A stretch of 64,000 bases of DNA from an uncultured Allomuricauda sp. (GTDB lineage: Bacteria > Bacteroidota > Bacteroidia > Flavobacteriales > Flavobacteriaceae): NCBI GenBank assembly GCA_937899065.1, contig CALBPG010000237.1, forward strand, positions 1 to 64,000. The letters run 5' to 3'. The notes below the pieces were generated by a model. That model had not been told where the DNA came from. It saw nothing but the letters and a program-made list of their open reading frames with translations, and did not search any database. Of this stretch, positions 15,291 through 24,155 are shown in pieces. The stretch's first letter is position 1. Each line of letters opens with the position of its first letter. A program made the translations under genes and the position numbers.

Positions 15291-17450
15291 TTATTGAAAA
15301 TCGGGGTGCCCCGTCTTCCAAAGAGCAAAAGATAACATGTTTGCCAATTCAATACTTTCTTTTTGAACACTGGCATCTAGCCCATGCCCACCTTCGGAGT
15401 CTACCATTAAAAGCGTTGGTTCGCCTGAGACATTATATTCTTGCATACGAGCGGTAAATTTTCCTGCCTCCCATGCATTGACCCTTGCGTCATTCAAACC
15501 GGCTGTAAGCAGCATTGCGGGATAAAACGTGCCCTTTTCAATACTGTGATACGAATCCATTTTGAGCAATCCTTTGAACTCAACCGAATCTTTTACGGTT
15601 CCGTACTCCTTAACATTATTTGGACCGTTGGGCCCTGTCTCGGTCCGAAGGGTATTCATAACGCCAACACGAATCATGGCACAATTGAATAATTCGGGGC
15701 GTGTAGTTACCGCTTTGCCAATCAGAATACCACCCGCACTACCACTAAAAACCGCTAGTTTTTCAGGAGTAGTATAGTTTTCATCAATTAGGTATTCTGC
15801 ACAAGAAATAAAATCCTTCCAGGTATTCGCTTTGGTGGACTTAAAACCTCCTTTGTACCAGCTATCGCCCTTCTCCCCGCCGCCACGAACGTGTGCTACT
15901 GCATAAACTCCTCCATACTTCAACCAATAGGGTAGATATTTTTCAATTTTAGGCCTATCAATAATACCATAAGCTCCATAACCACTTAATAAAACCCTTT
16001 GTTTTCCATCTTTAGGGGTGTTTTTATGGAAAATTAACGAAAGGGGGATTTTTTCTCCGTCATGAGCAGTTACTTCTATTTCCTGAACTACCACATCGGT
16101 AATGGCATCATGTGACGATGTATAACCGAAGGTTTCCTTTTGAAATCGCCCTGATCCCAAGTCGTATTTATATCTAGACTTTTTTGTGGTCCACCCTTCT
16201 AACACCACCCAGAAGTCTGAACTACTTTTACTTTTGTGTTGGATTTCTAAATGCCCTGCCGGAGCGGGCAACTCAATTGGTGTTACCTTGTCTTTTTGAA
16301 ACTCGAACAAAAAGGTTTCTACACCATTTCTCTTCTTTGCAAATAACAATGACCGGTCGGTTATGGCGAAGTCAGTAATGACCAAATCTTTATCCTCTGG
16401 GATTAGGATTTCTGGATTTTCAAAATCTGGGTTTTCCAATGAAGTTTTACAAATTTTGAAATTGGGCGCTTGATAAGCCGTCAAAAAAATAATGTCGTTT
16501 CCCGCAAGGTAAAAGGTAACTACCTTATGCTGCTTACCAAATAGCCTCTTCCATTGGATATTTGGGTTGTGAATTTGTTCTTTAGGGGCGTAGTAGTAGT
16601 CAGCATAGGGGCCAGGGCCCCATAAGCCTCCAAAAACATAGCTGTCTTTTGGATTTTGTAAATCCACTTCAGGAAAGTCTTCCTCACTAAAGGGAATTTC
16701 AGGATTATTATTTTTTGAAAAAAGTACCCTTACCGATTCGGCAGGAGAACCAATCTCGTACAATACCGTTTCCGTATTCAATAAATATCCTTCTTTGGAC
16801 TTATCAATTTCGGGGATATGTTCGTAGGTAAAACTCCTACCATCTTCCATCCAATGAACTCCCCCAAGACCTGCTGGCCAACAATGGTCCAAAGTATTGG
16901 GCATTATACTCCTATTTCCTATTTCGAGAATACGAATAATCGATATTTCCTCATCATTTTTGGTAAGTCCTACCACCACGTAAGAACCATCCCAATTAGG
17001 GCTAAAATAATTTATCGAGTAAGCTTCCCCTTGAATTTTAGGATTGAATAGCAAAATTTCCTCGCCTTGGTAACCTTCTCTATAAAAAAGTAGATTGTTT
17101 TGGGTTTCCGAGTCTCTTTTCAAATAAAAATAATAATCGTTTTCCGTAACCATTGTGGAAGAAACTTCCCCCGATTTGCTTGAAGCGTTTTCTGAAATCT
17201 CCTTAAACAACTTATCACGACCTGATATTCCATTCAATAGTTTCTTTGCCTCTTCGGTTTGGTGTTGGTACCACTTTAGAGTTGCCGAATCTCCAGGTGT
17301 CTCCATGTATCGGTATGGGTCATGAACGGACATCCCAAAATAGTTGTCTATCACATTTTCTTTAAGGAGTTTATTCTGGTTGCTTGGTGTTTTTTGTTTA
17401 CAAGAAATCATAAACAAAATCAGACCAACTATGATTTTCGCGTTGTTCAT
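15291..17450 (-). CDS. Prolyl oligopeptidase family (S9A) serine peptidase, lipoprotein
   Basis: Lipobox LILFMISCKQ; HVRGGGEKG; FSGSAGGILIG nucleophile; NDARV Asp; GGHG His. Confidence 0.92.
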   Translation of the reverse strand: MNNAKIIVGLILFMISCKQKTPSNQNKLLKENVIDNYFGMSVHDPYRYMETPGDSATLKWYQHQTEEAKKLLNGISGRDKLFKEISENASSKSGEVSSTMVTENDYYFYLKRDSETQNNLLFYREGYQGEEILLFNPKIQGEAYSINYFSPNWDGSYVVVGLTKNDEEISIIRILEIGNRSIMPNTLDHCWPAGLGGVHWMEDGRSFTYEHIPEIDKSKEGYLLNTETVLYEIGSPAESVRVLFSKNNNPEIPFSEEDFPEVDLQNPKDSYVFGGLWGPGPYADYYYAPKEQIHNPNIQWKRLFGKQHKVVTFYLAGNDIIFLTAYQAPNFKICKTSLENPDFENPEILIPEDKDLVITDFAITDRSLLFAKKRNGVETFLFEFQKDKVTPIELPAPAGHLEIQHKSKSSSDFWVVLEGWTTKKSRYKYDLGSGRFQKETFGYTSSHDAITDVVVQEIEVTAHDGEKIPLSLIFHKNTPKDGKQRVLLSGYGAYGIIDRPKIEKYLPYWLKYGGVYAVAHVRGGGEKGDSWYKGGFKSTKANTWKDFISCAEYLIDENYTTPEKLAVFSGSAGGILIGKAVTTRPELFNCAMIRVGVMNTLRTETGPNGPNNVKEYGTVKDSVEFKGLLKMDSYHSIEKGTFYPAMLLTAGLNDARVNAWEAGKFTARMQEYNVSGEPTLLMVDSEGGHGLDASVQKESIELANMLSFALWKTGHPDFQ

Positions 17451-17452
17451 AT

Positions 17453-17481
17453 GAAAAAAGCCTGCGAGTTTTTCGCAGGCT
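17453..17481 (-). terminator. Rho-independent terminator/attenuator between the 45-aa ORF and the prolyl oligopeptidase
   Basis: Minus strand AGCCTGCGA-AAAAC-TCGCAGGCT followed by a T-run ending about 2 nt before the peptidase ATG. Confidence 0.75.
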
Positions 17482-17501: not shown

Positions 17502-17639
17502 TTAAGGACGCCCCTTACTGGTTTCTCCTGTTCTCCCACGAGTACATCTACCGCCCAAAATCATTTCAGGATTATCGATTCGGGCTATGCGGATTTTTGA
17601 CAGTTTTAAGCGCGGTTGTGTTTTCGAATTTTTTTTCAT
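17502..17639 (-). CDS. Putative GG-leader (RiPP-type) precursor peptide, 45 aa
   Basis: Not in ORF track (<60 aa). MKKNSKTQPRLKLSKIRIARIDNPEMILGGRCTRGRTGETSKGRP; leader pattern KLSKIxIARIDNPEMILGG resembles Bacteroidota double-glycine leaders. Confidence 0.6.
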   Translation of the reverse strand: MKKNSKTQPRLKLSKIRIARIDNPEMILGGRCTRGRTGETSKGRP

Positions 17640-17709
17640 GAGTGACTGATTAATGTTTGTTTACCTCTTCAAGCTACTGAAAAAAGCTTGCTTTCAATAG
17701 TCCTATTTC

Positions 17710-17729
17710 CTGAAATTTATAAATTTCAG
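17710..17729. repeat. Perfect 20-bp palindrome CTGAAATTTATAAATTTCAG
   Basis: Lies just downstream of the regulator stop codon (minus strand). Confidence 0.9.
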
Positions 17730-17735
17730 TCACTC

Positions 17736-19427
17736 TTATCGCTTCTTATCCAATTGTTTGGCAAAGTATGAGGGATATAACCCAGTATGTTTTACGAAAG
17801 CGGAGGTAAAGGATTGGGCGTTGTTGAAACCACTTTCTTTAGCGATGGCTTCAATGGTATATTTCCGAAAAGTAAGATCACTTTTCATCTTGTTCATCGC
17901 GTATGAAACCCTAAGGTTATTTAGATAGTTTGAAAAGTTGACCCCTTTGAAGTGATTTATTATTTTAGAAAGGTATGCGCTGTTTGTTTTGAAATCTTTT
18001 GCTAAGGAGTTCAAAGTTTGTTTCGAAGCGGTAAAGGCACCTGATGTTTCAAACTCATCTAATTTTAATAATACTTCCTGAATGATTTGTTCGGATATAC
18101 CAATAGACTTTTCCATGGCACTATTGGATTCTTCCTTTGTTGTATCCGATTCTGGATTCAAAGAGTTTAAGACCGTTTCGAATTTTTTCTTGAGCTTGAT
18201 GTTTTTATTTATTTCGTAAACCGCGAAAAGAATTAATAGCAAAACCATAATAACGAGCGCCTTCGAAACCGTTCCCGAAACCTGTTTGTCTCGGTTCAAC
18301 TTATTGATTAAGGCTTCCTTTTGATTCATCAAAAGAGGAATTTCATACTCCTTTTTAATTTTTTGCTCCACTTGCCCCGTATAAGAGTCCAGAATGCTGT
18401 CGTATTTGATAATCGCATCAATCGTCTTTAACAGTTGCTTATCATTATTAGTTTTTCCATAGTAGTCTTTTAGCAGGAAGAAGGTTTCCATGGATTCTAA
18501 GAGAATCTCGTTGGATCCGATGATGAGAGAACCTGCCTTTTCCAAATTAGAAATGCACTTACTCTCATTTCCTAAAGCGCTGTTTATTTTGGCAAGATAA
18601 AGGTGATAAAGCGACCGGACGGTGGCGTCGGGATCTAGCTGTATCTCATCCTTGATACTTTCAGCTTGATTCAAAGCCTTTGGATACTCGGTGTTCTTGA
18701 AATAAGCAATGGCCCGGTTCATCCGAAAACGATTAACAAAAATGGAATCCCCTTCGTCTAAAGCCTTTCTTTCGCCCAACATAGAGTAATGAAAGGCAGA
18801 ATCAATCTTGTTGGAGAATAGAAACGCATCTGATTTAGCATAGAGCAATCGTGTCTCATAAAATCCTTTGTTCTCCAGTGGAAATGTATTTAGGTAATTA
18901 GCATATTTGTCGAAATACTCAAAAGATTCCAAGCGGTTACCTACAAGATTTTTTATTAAACCAATGTTGAAATTGGTTACGGCCTCCAATGGAGGATTCT
19001 CTCCATTGCTTGCCTTTAGTGTGGCGAAATAATAATCCAAGGCGACTGCATATTTACCGGTACGATAAAACATTCTGCCTTTCTGTAAATTCCCCTGAGC
19101 TAAAAATAGGTTGTGAATTTTATTTCCATGGGCCATCAAAATCAAACTGTCAGCATATTGAAAAGCTTTCTCTATTGGGGTTATGTTAGACATGATGTGG
19201 TAACCCTCCATAATTCTAACAGAATCCTTCTGTTGTTTTGCAAGAAGTATATAGGCCGCTGTCTTGGAAAGAGCACTAGCAGAGTCGATAGGAAATGTTC
19301 GAAAGTTCACTTTCAGCTGCTCATAATCCCTCTCAGTATCCTTGTTAGGTTTTGACTGTGAAAAACCAAGCGTGATAGTGCAAACAATAGTTAAACTGTA
19401 GCAAATGATTCTGGATGCCCTGCTCAT
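17736..19427 (-). CDS. TPR-containing AraC-type HTH transcriptional regulator
   Basis: TPR-like N-terminus, one TM (ALVIMVLLLILFAVYEI), C-terminal AraC HTH (IEAIAKESGFNNAQSFTSAFVKHTGLYPSYFAKQ). Confidence 0.88.
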   Translation of the reverse strand: MSRASRIICYSLTIVCTITLGFSQSKPNKDTERDYEQLKVNFRTFPIDSASALSKTAAYILLAKQQKDSVRIMEGYHIMSNITPIEKAFQYADSLILMAHGNKIHNLFLAQGNLQKGRMFYRTGKYAVALDYYFATLKASNGENPPLEAVTNFNIGLIKNLVGNRLESFEYFDKYANYLNTFPLENKGFYETRLLYAKSDAFLFSNKIDSAFHYSMLGERKALDEGDSIFVNRFRMNRAIAYFKNTEYPKALNQAESIKDEIQLDPDATVRSLYHLYLAKINSALGNESKCISNLEKAGSLIIGSNEILLESMETFFLLKDYYGKTNNDKQLLKTIDAIIKYDSILDSYTGQVEQKIKKEYEIPLLMNQKEALINKLNRDKQVSGTVSKALVIMVLLLILFAVYEINKNIKLKKKFETVLNSLNPESDTTKEESNSAMEKSIGISEQIIQEVLLKLDEFETSGAFTASKQTLNSLAKDFKTNSAYLSKIINHFKGVNFSNYLNNLRVSYAMNKMKSDLTFRKYTIEAIAKESGFNNAQSFTSAFVKHTGLYPSYFAKQLDKKR

Positions 19428-19827: not shown

Positions 19828-20100
19828 TTGATATCCATAAAGAACTTGGAACGCTTGCAAAAATTGCACCGGTTGATCGTCAATGAAACCACCGGTACAC
19901 CCAAGGAACTCGCTACGAGACTCCGGGTAAGCGAGCGTCTGATTTTTTGCTTGCTTGATGAGCTGAAAGACTACGAAGCCAACATAGCGTATGACCGTAA
20001 AAGGAAAACCTACTTCTATAGCGATGACTTCGAATTGGATATCAATATTTCCGTTTGCACCATAAGGGCAGGTGTAATTACTTCAAGTTTTCAGCTTTAA
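19828..20100 (+). CDS. Small helix-turn-helix DNA-binding protein (HTH_11/DeoR-like)
   Basis: LERLQKLHRLIVNETTGTPKELATRLRVSERLIFCLLDELKDYEANIAYDRKRKTYFY. Confidence 0.75.
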   Translation: MISIKNLERLQKLHRLIVNETTGTPKELATRLRVSERLIFCLLDELKDYEANIAYDRKRKTYFYSDDFELDINISVCTIRAGVITSSFQL

Positions 20101-20343: not shown

Positions 20344-21240
20344 ATGAAAACACTACGATTATCCAGTTTGATACTGATTTTGATATTATCAAGCTGCACA
20401 TCAGAAGAAAACAATCCTGTTTACCAAGAATCCGACACTGATGCTATAAGCTCGGAATCATCGTTCGAAGTAAGTGTGGACCAAAACATGCTCGTATTCC
20501 CAACCCGAGCAGATTACGATGGGGCCATTGCTGAATTAGGTGCCATGGATTCGGACCAATTTGCGCAATGGGAGTCAAAACTAGGCTTCGCATCTATGCG
20601 AAGTATGACTAGCACGGAACAGCGGGTATCCATAGGTATTGAGGATGACTTATTGGCCACTTTGTTAAACCAAGATGGTATCATCAAGATTGGAAGTCAC
20701 ATTTACAAAGTGGACATTCCGAATGAGGAAGTTCTTGTACTAGGGTCATCGGCCTTTTCTACCAAAAACTCTTTCACTAAAGGGAAACAACGAAGTTTGA
20801 GTATTCACGAAAACGTACTTGATGTTGTAGAAGGATTGGAACAACCCATGAGCCTGTCAGAACGGTCTAGGTACTGCAGCAAACGCAAGCTTTCGTGGAA
20901 TACCGCTGCCAATCTTTTGTCTGCAAAAATCGTGTATCAAAAGGCTGGTATCCTGAACTCATTACAGAGTAAAATCCAACAGGATAAGGTTAACATCTTT
21001 AACCTTGGGCTAAAGACCAATGGCACAAATAATTTTTGGCGAAACAAAAAGAAATCGGGTACTATCGGCCCTTACGAAACCACCTTTTTTGTTGCCGAAA
21101 CCAAGAGCTATCGACCCTACTATTCGAGCCGAAGACTTCGTGCATATCGCTTTTCTGTAGAATTCAGAGCGCAAGACAAAAATTTCGCTGGCACCACCAA
21201 CGGAATGATTACCAAAGTATTAACTATTAACTGCAATTAA
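20344..21240 (+). CDS. Hypothetical lipoprotein (DUF4848-like)
   Basis: Lipobox LILSSCTSEE; DGIIKIGSHIYKVDIPNEEVLVL segment. Confidence 0.5.
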   Translation: MKTLRLSSLILILILSSCTSEENNPVYQESDTDAISSESSFEVSVDQNMLVFPTRADYDGAIAELGAMDSDQFAQWESKLGFASMRSMTSTEQRVSIGIEDDLLATLLNQDGIIKIGSHIYKVDIPNEEVLVLGSSAFSTKNSFTKGKQRSLSIHENVLDVVEGLEQPMSLSERSRYCSKRKLSWNTAANLLSAKIVYQKAGILNSLQSKIQQDKVNIFNLGLKTNGTNNFWRNKKKSGTIGPYETTFFVAETKSYRPYYSSRRLRAYRFSVEFRAQDKNFAGTTNGMITKVLTINCN

Positions 21241-21251
21241 ACACCCTTAAC

Positions 21252-22823
21252 ATGAAAACGAACAAATATTTATTTTTTCTAATGACCCTAGGTCTATTGT
21301 TGACCCATTCTTGTACCAAAGAAGAGCCTATCGTATCCCAAGACAACACTAATGTAGCAACCGTACCGGAGACCATTACTTTGGAAGAAAACATCCTATC
21401 GTTTGACTCCAAAGAAACCCTTACCGCTCTCTTGGAAAATGATGATGAAGGTATTTTGGATCAGACCATGCAATCCTTATCCGATAAGGGTTTTACGGCC
21501 CTCCGTCCAATATTTACTGATTTGGATGGTCCAGAGGTGGAATCGTTTCTCGCGCATAAAGCATCGCTGATTCAGAGCAAAGGAATTCTGTATTCTACCA
21601 GAGGTAACGACGCAGAGTTGGACTTGGATGACGAAGTCATTTCCGATGGAAAATTTGCAAAAGTGTTGAACGAAAACAGAGAGCTTATCGTTGGGAACAA
21701 CTACTATGTATACACCACAAACGGATTGTATTTCTGTGAAAAGAGCAAAAAAGAGACTTTGCAAAACTACCTGGTCAGTTTATCCACCGACAAGAATTTC
21801 AAACCTTACGAAAGACGTAGTTGCGGTGATGAAAATATGCTTCGCTCTTCCGGTGATGTCCTTCAGTTGGCGCCAATAGAAGGAGAAGTTAAACAAGTTA
21901 CTTCTGAAATCAACCAATTTGTTTCTTCCTGTAGCGGTGGCGGTGGTGGAGGAACCGGTGGTGGAACTGGCGGTTCCAGTGGCGGCAGTTCATCCTCATC
22001 CACACCCCCTATCTTGATTCCGCAAAGTTTCGGTCAATGCACCTATAGTGAGGATAGTATCTTCCAAAAGATTTTTGGAAATACGGTCAAGTGTAACGAT
22101 TACCATGATAGTACACACAGAATCCAAACCAAGGTTTGGAACGAGAACTACTTTTTATGGTCTTCCGTTGGGGTTTCTGCAAAATATCAAAAGAAACGTT
22201 TCATTGGGTGGTCAGAGTCCAGCACTTCTGATGGAGTAAGACTCGGTTTAAATCATGCCATCTATACCTATAAATCCCCAATGAGTCCTTATAACGCCCA
22301 CGACCCAAAACGGGTAATATTTAAATACAAAGGGGTAAACTACAACCAAAATGGACAGGTAGTCACCAGCTACCCTATCAATTCGTCAGTATGGCCTTTT
22401 CCACAAAATGAAACTTTGGGTGCTATTGAAATTTACATCTTTGGGGACGACAGGTACTGGCCTTTGACCGGAAAAGACGCAAACAAAACCATCAACCAAT
22501 TATTGAGTCAGGCTAGAGGTGCAATTCGAGGATTGTCGAATGACATGAACAATGATAAAGTGGGGATTCAAGTTGTGAAGTTCCTACCTACTTCTTTCCG
22601 GATTACCCAAGCAGATGTTTTATTGAAACACCGTTCTCAAGCCAAAAGAACCTTGGATTTCAATTTTCTTTTAAAGTTTAAAAGCGGGAACTCCGATATA
22701 TTCCAAAATGTGGTGAATCAGCTAAATGCTGAAAAGTATGACAAAATAGAGATTGACATGTACGGTGCCGCTTTGCGAAATGGAAAATGGAAAGGCAAAA
22801 GAATCATTGGAAAAGTTGATTAA
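21252..22823 (+). CDS. Hypothetical lipoprotein with Gly/Ser linker and unknown C-terminal domain
   Basis: Lipobox LLTHSCTKEE; CSGGGGGGTGGGTGGSSGGSSSSSTPP linker; N-terminus organised like the 20344 gene product. Confidence 0.6.
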   Translation: MKTNKYLFFLMTLGLLLTHSCTKEEPIVSQDNTNVATVPETITLEENILSFDSKETLTALLENDDEGILDQTMQSLSDKGFTALRPIFTDLDGPEVESFLAHKASLIQSKGILYSTRGNDAELDLDDEVISDGKFAKVLNENRELIVGNNYYVYTTNGLYFCEKSKKETLQNYLVSLSTDKNFKPYERRSCGDENMLRSSGDVLQLAPIEGEVKQVTSEINQFVSSCSGGGGGGTGGGTGGSSGGSSSSSTPPILIPQSFGQCTYSEDSIFQKIFGNTVKCNDYHDSTHRIQTKVWNENYFLWSSVGVSAKYQKKRFIGWSESSTSDGVRLGLNHAIYTYKSPMSPYNAHDPKRVIFKYKGVNYNQNGQVVTSYPINSSVWPFPQNETLGAIEIYIFGDDRYWPLTGKDANKTINQLLSQARGAIRGLSNDMNNDKVGIQVVKFLPTSFRITQADVLLKHRSQAKRTLDFNFLLKFKSGNSDIFQNVVNQLNAEKYDKIEIDMYGAALRNGKWKGKRIIGKVD

Positions 22824-22831
22824 TTTTAAAT

Positions 22832-23398
22832 ATGATGTTCCGAAATTCGATGTTACCTCTATTACTTTTAGCATTATTATGTGCTAATCTTAACGCGCAA
22901 GAAAATCAAGCTGAGCCGGTTGAAAACATGCTCCGGATAAATTTTGTGAATCCAGCATTGGAATATGAGCATAAAACCTCAAAAAGTTCCGTGATGAGTG
23001 GCGCAGCTGGAATAGGGTATGGCGGTAGCTATCGAGAATTGGAAGTGTCAAATGCAAACGGGCTAGTATATGTTATTAGTCCGTTTGTTGACCTTCAGCA
23101 CAAATGGTATTACAACCGAAACAAACGCCTTTCCAAGGGTAAAAGTAATGAAGGCAATGCAGGAAACTACTTCTCCTTACGGGGAATAACCCGATTTGCT
23201 GCCATCAGTGAAAATATTACCCGAACGGATGATTTTGATTTTGCTGTTGGCCCTACCTGGGGACTCCAAAGGAGCTATGGAAAAATACATTTCCTCCTTG
23301 ATTTTGGTCCGCAATTCTACTTTGACTCTATTGGTAATTCTGGTTTCTTTCCCATAATGGTGCAAATCAACATTGGTTTGAACTTTAAAAAGAAATGA
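22832..23398 (+). CDS. Hypothetical secreted/outer membrane protein
   Basis: Signal peptide LLALLCANLNAQ; beta-barrel-like C-terminus ending in NIGLNFKKK. Confidence 0.6.
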   Translation: MMFRNSMLPLLLLALLCANLNAQENQAEPVENMLRINFVNPALEYEHKTSKSSVMSGAAGIGYGGSYRELEVSNANGLVYVISPFVDLQHKWYYNRNKRLSKGKSNEGNAGNYFSLRGITRFAAISENITRTDDFDFAVGPTWGLQRSYGKIHFLLDFGPQFYFDSIGNSGFFPIMVQINIGLNFKKK

Positions 23399-23531
23399 GC
23401 GGGCCAACAAAAGGATATCATCATTTTCATCATGCAGGAAAGGTTAAACTCCCGTAAAGCATCTTATAAGAAAACCAATATGCCCAGATTCCTCGTAAAT
23501 CTATAACCATGTTTCATTTGTACAAAAGTCA

Positions 23532-24155
23532 ATGATTCTCATGAATCGAAAAATTTGGATCTTACTCTTTGTCTCCTCTCTATCCTCCTGTGTTGGAGGT
23601 AAGTTCAGCTATTCATTCGATACAGGAAGACAGCTGGACTTCAGCAAAGGGAAATGGATTTTCAACAAAACAGAATCAAATTCCACAATCTTTGATAGTG
23701 AACTTAACGTATTGGCGTACAATGAATTTCGAAAGCTTCTAGGTGATTCCTTAACGGATTTGAATGCCTTGCGCGCCAAAAAAATGGTTCCACCAAAAAT
23801 TGAATTCGAACTCTCAAAAGAAGCCTTGCAGCAACTCGGCAAGGATACGGGCTGTCAATATCTTATCAACACCCGTGGATACATTGTCAGCAATGGCGCA
23901 GGCAGTATTTCGTTTGATACCGGAAACGGGTACTACAGTGCCAGTAACCAATCTTCTGTTTCAATAGCCATTTACAACCTTGAATCTGGAACACTAGTGT
24001 CGGCATCTCAAGCTGTCGGAAAGGCAACTGCGGAGAATTCGCACTTTGACGATAATAAGGGTGTACCTTCTATAAATTCAAGCGCAGAAACGCTGATGCT
24101 AAAGGCGGCTAAAAACCTTATCAGAAAATACGATAAGTACAGATTGGACCAATAA
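23532..24155 (+). CDS. Hypothetical lipoprotein
   Basis: Lipobox LFVSSLSSCVGG; 207 aa. Confidence 0.6.
   Translation: MILMNRKIWILLFVSSLSSCVGGKFSYSFDTGRQLDFSKGKWIFNKTESNSTIFDSELNVLAYNEFRKLLGDSLTDLNALRAKKMVPPKIEFELSKEALQQLGKDTGCQYLINTRGYIVSNGAGSISFDTGNGYYSASNQSSVSIAIYNLESGTLVSASQAVGKATAENSHFDDNKGVPSINSSAETLMLKAAKNLIRKYDKYRLDQ

Follow-up and report, generated by a model that had tools for sequence, protein, structure and literature searches.

Does a 45-codon reading frame lying between two much longer genes encode a real precursor peptide, and if so, what would its neighbours do with the product? The reading frame occupies positions 17502-17639 on the minus strand of the window, the whole stretch of 64,000 nucleotides from an uncultured Allomuricauda species that was analysed. 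It is flanked on the same strand by a gene for a TPR-transmembrane-AraC regulator of 563 amino acids (17736-19427), which precedes it, and a gene for an S9A peptidase of 719 amino acids (15291-17450), which follows. The peptidase is similar to prolyl oligopeptidase (POP) and oligopeptidase B and has a lipoprotein-type amino-terminus (PF00326 and PF02897). A gap of 96 nucleotides separates the stop codon of the regulator gene from the ATG of the peptide gene, and about 50 nucleotides lie between the end of the peptide gene and the ATG of the S9A gene. An initial annotation of this DNA had proposed a candidate RiPP-like precursor with a double-glycine leader and pointed out that some RiPP leaders are removed by prolyl oligopeptidases; the 45-codon translation that it gave is exactly the one we obtain.

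The 45-residue peptide and its leader

The open reading frames of the window, 368 in number, were compared with a profile made from 96 leaders that belong to peptides encoded after TPR-AraC genes of other genomes; the window leader was kept out of it. The 45-residue peptide is the top match, with 36.6 bits and an E-value of 9.6e-11, against 6.8 bits for the runner-up and 14.0 bits for the best match from 20 Markov-shuffled windows; the leader set behind these scores is not wholly blind, since the window peptide and regulator were among the starting queries, but most members came in through the regulator search. Because a profile built without the window sequence ranks it clearly first, the reading frame is more than a chance occurrence, and it looks like a real gene for the precursor of a small peptide that is secreted.

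The leader comprises residues 1-30 (17550-17639, minus strand) and reads LKLSKIRIARI...ILGG, which corresponds to an LxLxKx5L...GG motif with Ile in place of the last Leu. The assignment also agrees with the alignment of leaders from other cassettes, and a leader motif of the form LxLxKx5L/I...GG is described for class I LanA precursors of Bacteroidetes by Walker et al. 2020 (PMC7268733). The predicted core, RCTRGRTGETSKGRP (17505-17549, minus strand), is about 15 residues long and contains a single Cys at position 2, with every Ser and Thr of the core located carboxy-terminal to it. The double-glycine-leader precursor of the initial annotation is thus borne out by the profile match and by the recurrent gene order described below.

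Curated models recognise the peptide less well. The NCBIfam model for class I lanthipeptide leaders, NF038153, gives 15.4 bits (E-value 0.015), below its cut-off of 22, and at an E-value of 0.001 the same model has matches above cut-off in only 5 of 151 genomes of the family. TIGR04149, which covers leaders of rSAM-modified RiPPs in Bacteroidetes, matches weakly (10.8 bits, below its cut-off of 25), and a Pfam search with the peptide gave zero family matches. A close ortholog is absent from 72 other genomes of the genus, the sole relative of the peptide there being encoded in genome G024, directly after a TPR-AraC gene. The other genus matches examined (L003-L012) were rejected as relatives, being reading frames inside or antisense to larger genes.

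A recurring cassette of regulator, peptide and peptidase

When the genus was searched with the regulator, eight loci were found in which regulator and peptide genes are followed by a gene for a secreted S9A or S8 (subtilisin) peptidase; many of the lower-scoring loci contained other AraC genes or TPR-AraC genes lacking a peptide. The recurring cassette consists of a TPR-transmembrane-AraC regulator gene, a GG-leader peptide gene about 110 nucleotides downstream and, often, a gene for a secreted S9A or S8 peptidase. In a search of 301 family genomes with the peptide profile, in which neighbouring genes were disregarded, nearly all convincing matches adjoin TPR-AraC genes (the exceptions being L057 and L060). 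In a phylum-wide search for which only leaders were used, 30 of them, all ten non-window loci have both a TPR-AraC gene and a gene for a POP or an S8 peptidase as neighbours; the regulator of one of these searched loci, L228, is divergent, and L227 repeats a locus already found in the family search.

Seen from the regulator side, 68 of 128 distinct TPR-AraC proteins carry a peptide (79 named loci plus earlier ones), counted with a closer regulator set; an alignment of very diverse regulators yielded no searchable stretch. The peptide starts 60-150 nucleotides after the regulator in 64 of these 68 loci, a range that includes the 96 nucleotides of the window, where regulator, peptide and S9A genes also share a strand as in the cassette. 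On the regulator tree the peptide label is clustered, with 20 changes versus a mean of 43.0 after shuffling and none of 500 shuffles as low; the window regulator is on a long branch and its exact placement is unsure. Where a genome has several TPR-AraC genes, each of these is often followed by a peptide of its own (L116, L121, L133 and L205).

For related peptides, pooled dS is 0.51 versus a dN of 0.12, calculated from 18 pairs picked at a sequence identity of at least 65%, a choice that favours low dN. These values indicate purifying selection on related peptides, and thus on the family only, as the window peptide has no close ortholog in the 72 genus genomes. Co-conservation of the peptide with the S9A and TPR-AraC genes, which had been put forward as a check on the reading frame, is likewise found at the level of the cassette family.

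The cassettes vary in composition and surroundings. Many of those outside the S9A/S8 group, chiefly from Aquimarina, have peptides and no adjoining peptidase. In the Aquimarina loci L139-L168, tandem arrays of two to four GG peptides come after the TPR-AraC genes; many of these peptides share an STKT motif in their carboxy-terminal part, and no LanB is present in the fetched flanks. In genome G350 (L116-L121), which has one LanB, several TPR-AraC genes are paired with peptides whose cores are rich in Cys or Thr; this genome would be a good test case for receptor-ligand specificity. Nine cassettes (L094, L095, L097, L098, L099, L102, L103, L104 and L108) are beside RteC-type genes (PF09357 for L095), and some of these are also near TraG genes of conjugative elements; with such neighbours, the cassettes appear to be mobile cargo. 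In the window, a small divergent gene on the plus strand (19828-20100, TTG start) codes for an HTH protein of 90 amino acids, with 53% identity over 88 residues to the product of L106:4891-5250, and members of this family are also found beside the cassettes of L109, L110, L126, L153, L162 and L182. Further along, at 20344-24155 on the plus strand, four genes code for secreted proteins or lipoproteins without Pfam matches, and their counterparts accompany TPR-AraC/C39 loci outside the window: L094 has the full set, L123 three, L107 two and L096 one. The product of one of them (21252-22823) is 41% identical to its L094 counterpart, and in L096 and L123 such genes directly follow the TPR-AraC gene, replacing peptide and peptidase.

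The regulator was characterised by Pfam (PF12833), hydropathy, AlphaFold2 modelling and Foldseek comparison. After a signal-like segment at the amino-terminus, the AlphaFold2 model (mean pLDDT 87.5, from 35 sequences) contains a TPR superhelix (residues 29-325), a long helix (329-422) and an HTH domain (446-562), the last including the HTH_18 match of PF12833 at 475-557. Hydropathy locates one transmembrane segment, residues 385-403, between the TPR and HTH parts. The regulator is predicted to be a membrane protein with an extracytoplasmic TPR superhelix resembling Rap-Phr pheromone receptors. Foldseek searches of the PDB returned peptide-bound TPR proteins as the top matches, namely LGN complexes and the Rap proteins of phages Phi3T and Phi105 with their pheromones. 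The best target-normalised TM-score is 0.64, for phage Phi3T Rap with pheromone; the TM-scores are moderate, with TMq about 0.4, the E-value of eukaryotic LGN is slightly better than that of Rap, and TPR folds are known for a wide range of partners. AraC-type DNA-binding domains were also matched. Between cassette members, the TPR regions are 27% conserved and the HTH regions 38-50%. The predicted transmembrane sensor topology goes beyond the initial annotation, as do the palindrome and the terminator-like hairpin of the two intergenic gaps.

The gap between regulator and peptide (17640-17735, minus strand) is bounded by a perfect inverted repeat, formed by GAGTGACTGA (17726-17735) and TCAGTCACTC (17640-17649), and gives a strong predicted RNA fold (z = -4.8). 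Of this fold we take the inner palindrome alone as a candidate element. This palindrome, GAAATTTATAAATTTC (17712-17727), is the only exact GAAATT-N4-AATTTC in the window and is a candidate operator. Of 71 gaps that follow a peptide-bearing TPR-AraC gene, 9 contain an exact copy, compared with none of 62 behind peptide-less ones and none of 583 behind control genes; the independent events are fewer than nine, because several are related Aquimarina and Flavobacterium loci, while the occurrences in Chryseobacterium soli (L208) and in the window are separate. Allowing one mismatch, the counts are 16 peptide-bearing, 1 peptide-less and 4 control gaps. The palindrome was first noticed and then counted in the same gaps, so that it is the contrast with control genes, and not the window and the nearest copies, that constitutes an independent test. 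The exact palindrome is present in a minority of cassettes; in L097, L101 and L105 its centre, TTTATAAA, is kept and the arms are changed yet still palindromic.

Between peptide and peptidase, at 17454-17481 (minus strand), AGCCTGCGA-AAAAC-TCGCAGGCT and a T-run form a terminator-like hairpin (fold z = -3.9), a candidate partial terminator. Such hairpins occur between peptide and peptidase in 8 of 29 cassettes (one pair being from the same genome) and in none of the shuffled gaps. The hairpin and T-run after the peptide gene suggest that peptide and peptidase are unevenly expressed. Matches to a Bacteroidetes-type promoter motif, TTG-N17-24-TANNTTTG, upstream of the 68 peptides number 2 when exact and 14 with one mismatch, the latter versus 9.4 in shuffles, so that such a promoter is at most putative here.

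Peptidase, exporter and the possible fate of the core

The catalytic triad of the S9A protein is intact, with its Ser (in GSAGG), Asp (in LNDAR) and His (in GGHG) aligned with those of solved prolyl endopeptidases. It has an Asn (PNNVKEYG) where the aligned solved Myxococcus prolyl endopeptidase has a Trp (RTWIPEYG). We take this Trp to be an S1-region residue bearing on proline specificity, and given its replacement by Asn, proline specificity should not be assumed. As a leader-removing protease, the S9A enzyme is disfavoured by its predicted export as a lipoprotein and by the GG at the end of the leaders. Instead of leader removal by the prolyl oligopeptidase, a cut at the GG by a C39 exporter is the more likely event; being a predicted exported lipoprotein, the S9A enzyme would then act on the core after the exporter has removed the leader.

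No C39 transporter or LanB gene adjoins the window cassette, and, as already reported in the initial annotation, neither a lanthionine synthetase nor a C39 transporter is seen in the window. The idea that maturation is encoded elsewhere holds in part, as a cluster with LanB, LanC and C39 does exist on another contig of the same genome (C18), in the order LanC-LanB-split LanB-two precursors-MFP-C39. Contig C145 contains a second C39/MFP pair. The LanB of contig C18 is the sole one found in this genome, which is 92% complete, and the precursors that accompany it have a different leader, KKIGLSLNKKTI. Another orphan leader-type precursor of this genome (G000), MKKSKGIGLALNKKTISRLLGNQITGG..., is encoded at C118:637-801 (L014) and is like the precursors of the C18 LanB cluster; contig C118 has no LanB gene. 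More widely, C39 is present in 27 of 27 cassette genomes.

Cassettes with different peptidases differ in their association with LanB. Most S8-type cassettes belong to clusters that also encode LanB, a separate LanB C-terminal (thiopeptide-type) protein, C39-ABC and HlyD-type proteins, for instance L103-L109, L131 and L132. In these example clusters, which have the separate LanB C-terminal gene, no LanC was called within the fetched stretch; the cores of L103, L104 and L106 are Cys-free and may be dehydrated, uncyclised peptides. The C39-linked POP-type cassettes (L094, L095 and L097-L100) are without LanB, which is absent from all six genomes; their short cores are Cys-free, as expected for unmodified peptides, and most share an IDRDKV-like stretch, which the window core resembles loosely. 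A second POP group, from the phylum search, combines LxLxK leaders with a LanB gene at most about 5 kb away (G444, G494, G634, G664 and G656). The window cassette combines an LxLxK leader with a POP and has no adjoining C39 or LanB; its closest counterpart, L101 from another Flavobacteriaceae genome, is also an orphan, and the two S9A proteins are 43% identical.

These associations bear on an alternative that we consider unlikely: the peptide could be an orphan RiPP precursor modified in trans. The LanB and LanC of contig C18 would recognise the LxLxK leader and dehydrate, perhaps cyclise, the core, the C39 protein of the same contig would export it, the S9A enzyme would trim it and the TPR-AraC protein would be the pathway regulator. 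The fit of the leader to the LanA motif of PMC7268733, the presence of LanB, LanC and C39 in the same genome and the second POP group with its nearby LanB genes are all consistent with this. However, the precursors that belong to the C18 cluster itself carry another leader, the NF038153 score is under the cut-off, and the position of the core Cys goes against the usual order of Ser/Thr before Cys. In the wider set, Ser or Thr precedes a Cys in 3 of 17 POP-type cores versus 19 of 25 S8/LanB-type cores (Fisher p 4e-4). A lanthionine product from the window core is unlikely, as its Cys precedes every Ser and Thr and the LanB, LanC and C39 genes are on another contig with precursors of their own. 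The RiPP label of the initial annotation must be called unproven, considering this residue order and the Cys-free cores of the C39-linked POP cassettes in the six LanB-less genomes. On the combined grounds of adjacency, core order and curated cut-off, we do not file the window peptide as a lanthipeptide.

It is improbable that the peptide is a bacteriocin-like antagonist, that is, an exported, basic peptide toxic to competitors and regulated by the cassette, with no obvious immunity gene. The GG leader, C39 export, basic core and hypervariable cores behind a conserved leader would suit such a role, as would the location of several related cassettes beside RteC/TraG genes of conjugative elements. 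Against it, the cores are short (POP-type median 16 residues) and, by eye, hydrophilic, no immunity gene stands out, and one regulator per peptide suits sensing better. Lastly, since the peptide is not conserved in the 72 other genus genomes, the cassette might be what is left of a lanthipeptide-type cluster in decay, one that has lost its transporter and modifying genes and in which the reading frame persists without function. This very doubtful reading draws on the missing adjoining C39 and LanB and on a core unlike the motif of C39-linked POP cassettes. It is opposed by the intact state of the reading frame and its leader, of the palindrome and the hairpin, and of the regulator and the catalytic residues, and by the similar orphan POP cassette of L101.

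Proposed working and relation to known systems

The reading that we favour, and to which we give about even chances, is that the window reading frame is the middle gene of a three-gene orphan cassette, the peptide of which is exported, trimmed and sensed by the paired regulator. The leader would be recognised by a C39-type ABC exporter from another part of the genome (contig C18 or C145), which would cut after the GG and transport the core of about 15 residues beyond the cytoplasm, where it would be trimmed or destroyed by the lipoprotein S9A peptidase. The extracytoplasmic TPR superhelix of the regulator would sense the peptide or a processed form of it, and the membrane helix would relay the signal to the AraC domain, whose target would be the palindrome that shortly precedes the peptide gene. 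The terminator-like hairpin after the peptide gene may keep peptide output above that of the peptidase. The evidence suggests that the cassette is a poorly charted peptide signalling or peptide-product module.

For the family as a whole, we tentatively propose, at somewhat less than even chances, that Flavobacteriaceae have widespread membrane-anchored TPR-AraC one-component receptors, each with its own C39-exported GG-leader peptide and often with a secreted peptidase that matures or quenches it. Such a system would be a Gram-negative, extracytoplasmic counterpart of Rap-Phr, in part carried by conjugative elements and with an evolutionary history entangled with that of lanthipeptide clusters, and the window would contain an orphan example. 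To our knowledge, there are few documented cases of cell-cell signalling by peptides in Bacteroidota, and we found no description of the TPR-AraC/GG-peptide pairing in the open literature. If the TPR-AraC proteins are receptors for the adjacent peptides, dozens of receptor-ligand pairs could be tested directly, and a candidate operator and a dedicated peptidase come with them. A regulator would also be supplied for many class I lanthipeptide clusters of Flavobacteriaceae that are still uncharacterised, and the combination of a TPR-AraC gene and a GG-leader reading frame about 110 nucleotides downstream would provide a genomic handle for precursors that current models mostly miss.

The protease FlaP of flavipeptin is a counterpart encoded beside a leader-peptide gene. 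For lanthipeptides, the name LanPA is used for subtilisins and LanPB for prolyl oligopeptidases (PMC7268733). The cassette resembles these systems in having an S8 or S9A protease beside the leader-peptide gene; unlike them, the window protease is a predicted exported lipoprotein, with Asn in place of the S1-region Trp of the aligned solved enzyme. With class I lanthipeptides of Bacteroidetes (PMC7268733; NF038153/NF038158), the window peptide shares the leader motif and the double glycine; C39 proteases are present in those gene clusters, and most S8-type cassettes are located inside LanB clusters. The window peptide differs in having no adjoining LanB or LanC, in an unsuited order of Cys and Ser/Thr and in its NF038153 score below the cut-off. 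A TPR-AraC partner for class I precursors of Bacteroidetes is not mentioned in the passages of PMC7268733 consulted, and TPR genes do occur in some Bacteroidales RiPP clusters (PMC10352776). The likeness to the rSAM-modified RiPP leaders of TIGR04149 is weak and below the cut-off, and the initial annotation noted that the window has no radical SAM gene of the RiPP type.

RRNPP receptors are cytoplasmic and bind a re-imported peptide; the window regulator would differ from them, judging by its predicted transmembrane segment at 385-403 and signal-like amino-terminus. The window regulator has its TPR part predicted outside the cytoplasm and a fused AraC output, and its peptide has a GG leader, not a Sec signal, in a Gram-negative Bacteroidota host. 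Because it is predicted to be membrane-bound, we do not file the regulator as a member of the RRNPP family. It may nevertheless work like an RRNPP receptor. It shares with these proteins (Rap-Phr; Phi3T Rap, PDB 8rsv) a modelled TPR superhelix and the pairing with an adjacent gene for a small secreted peptide.
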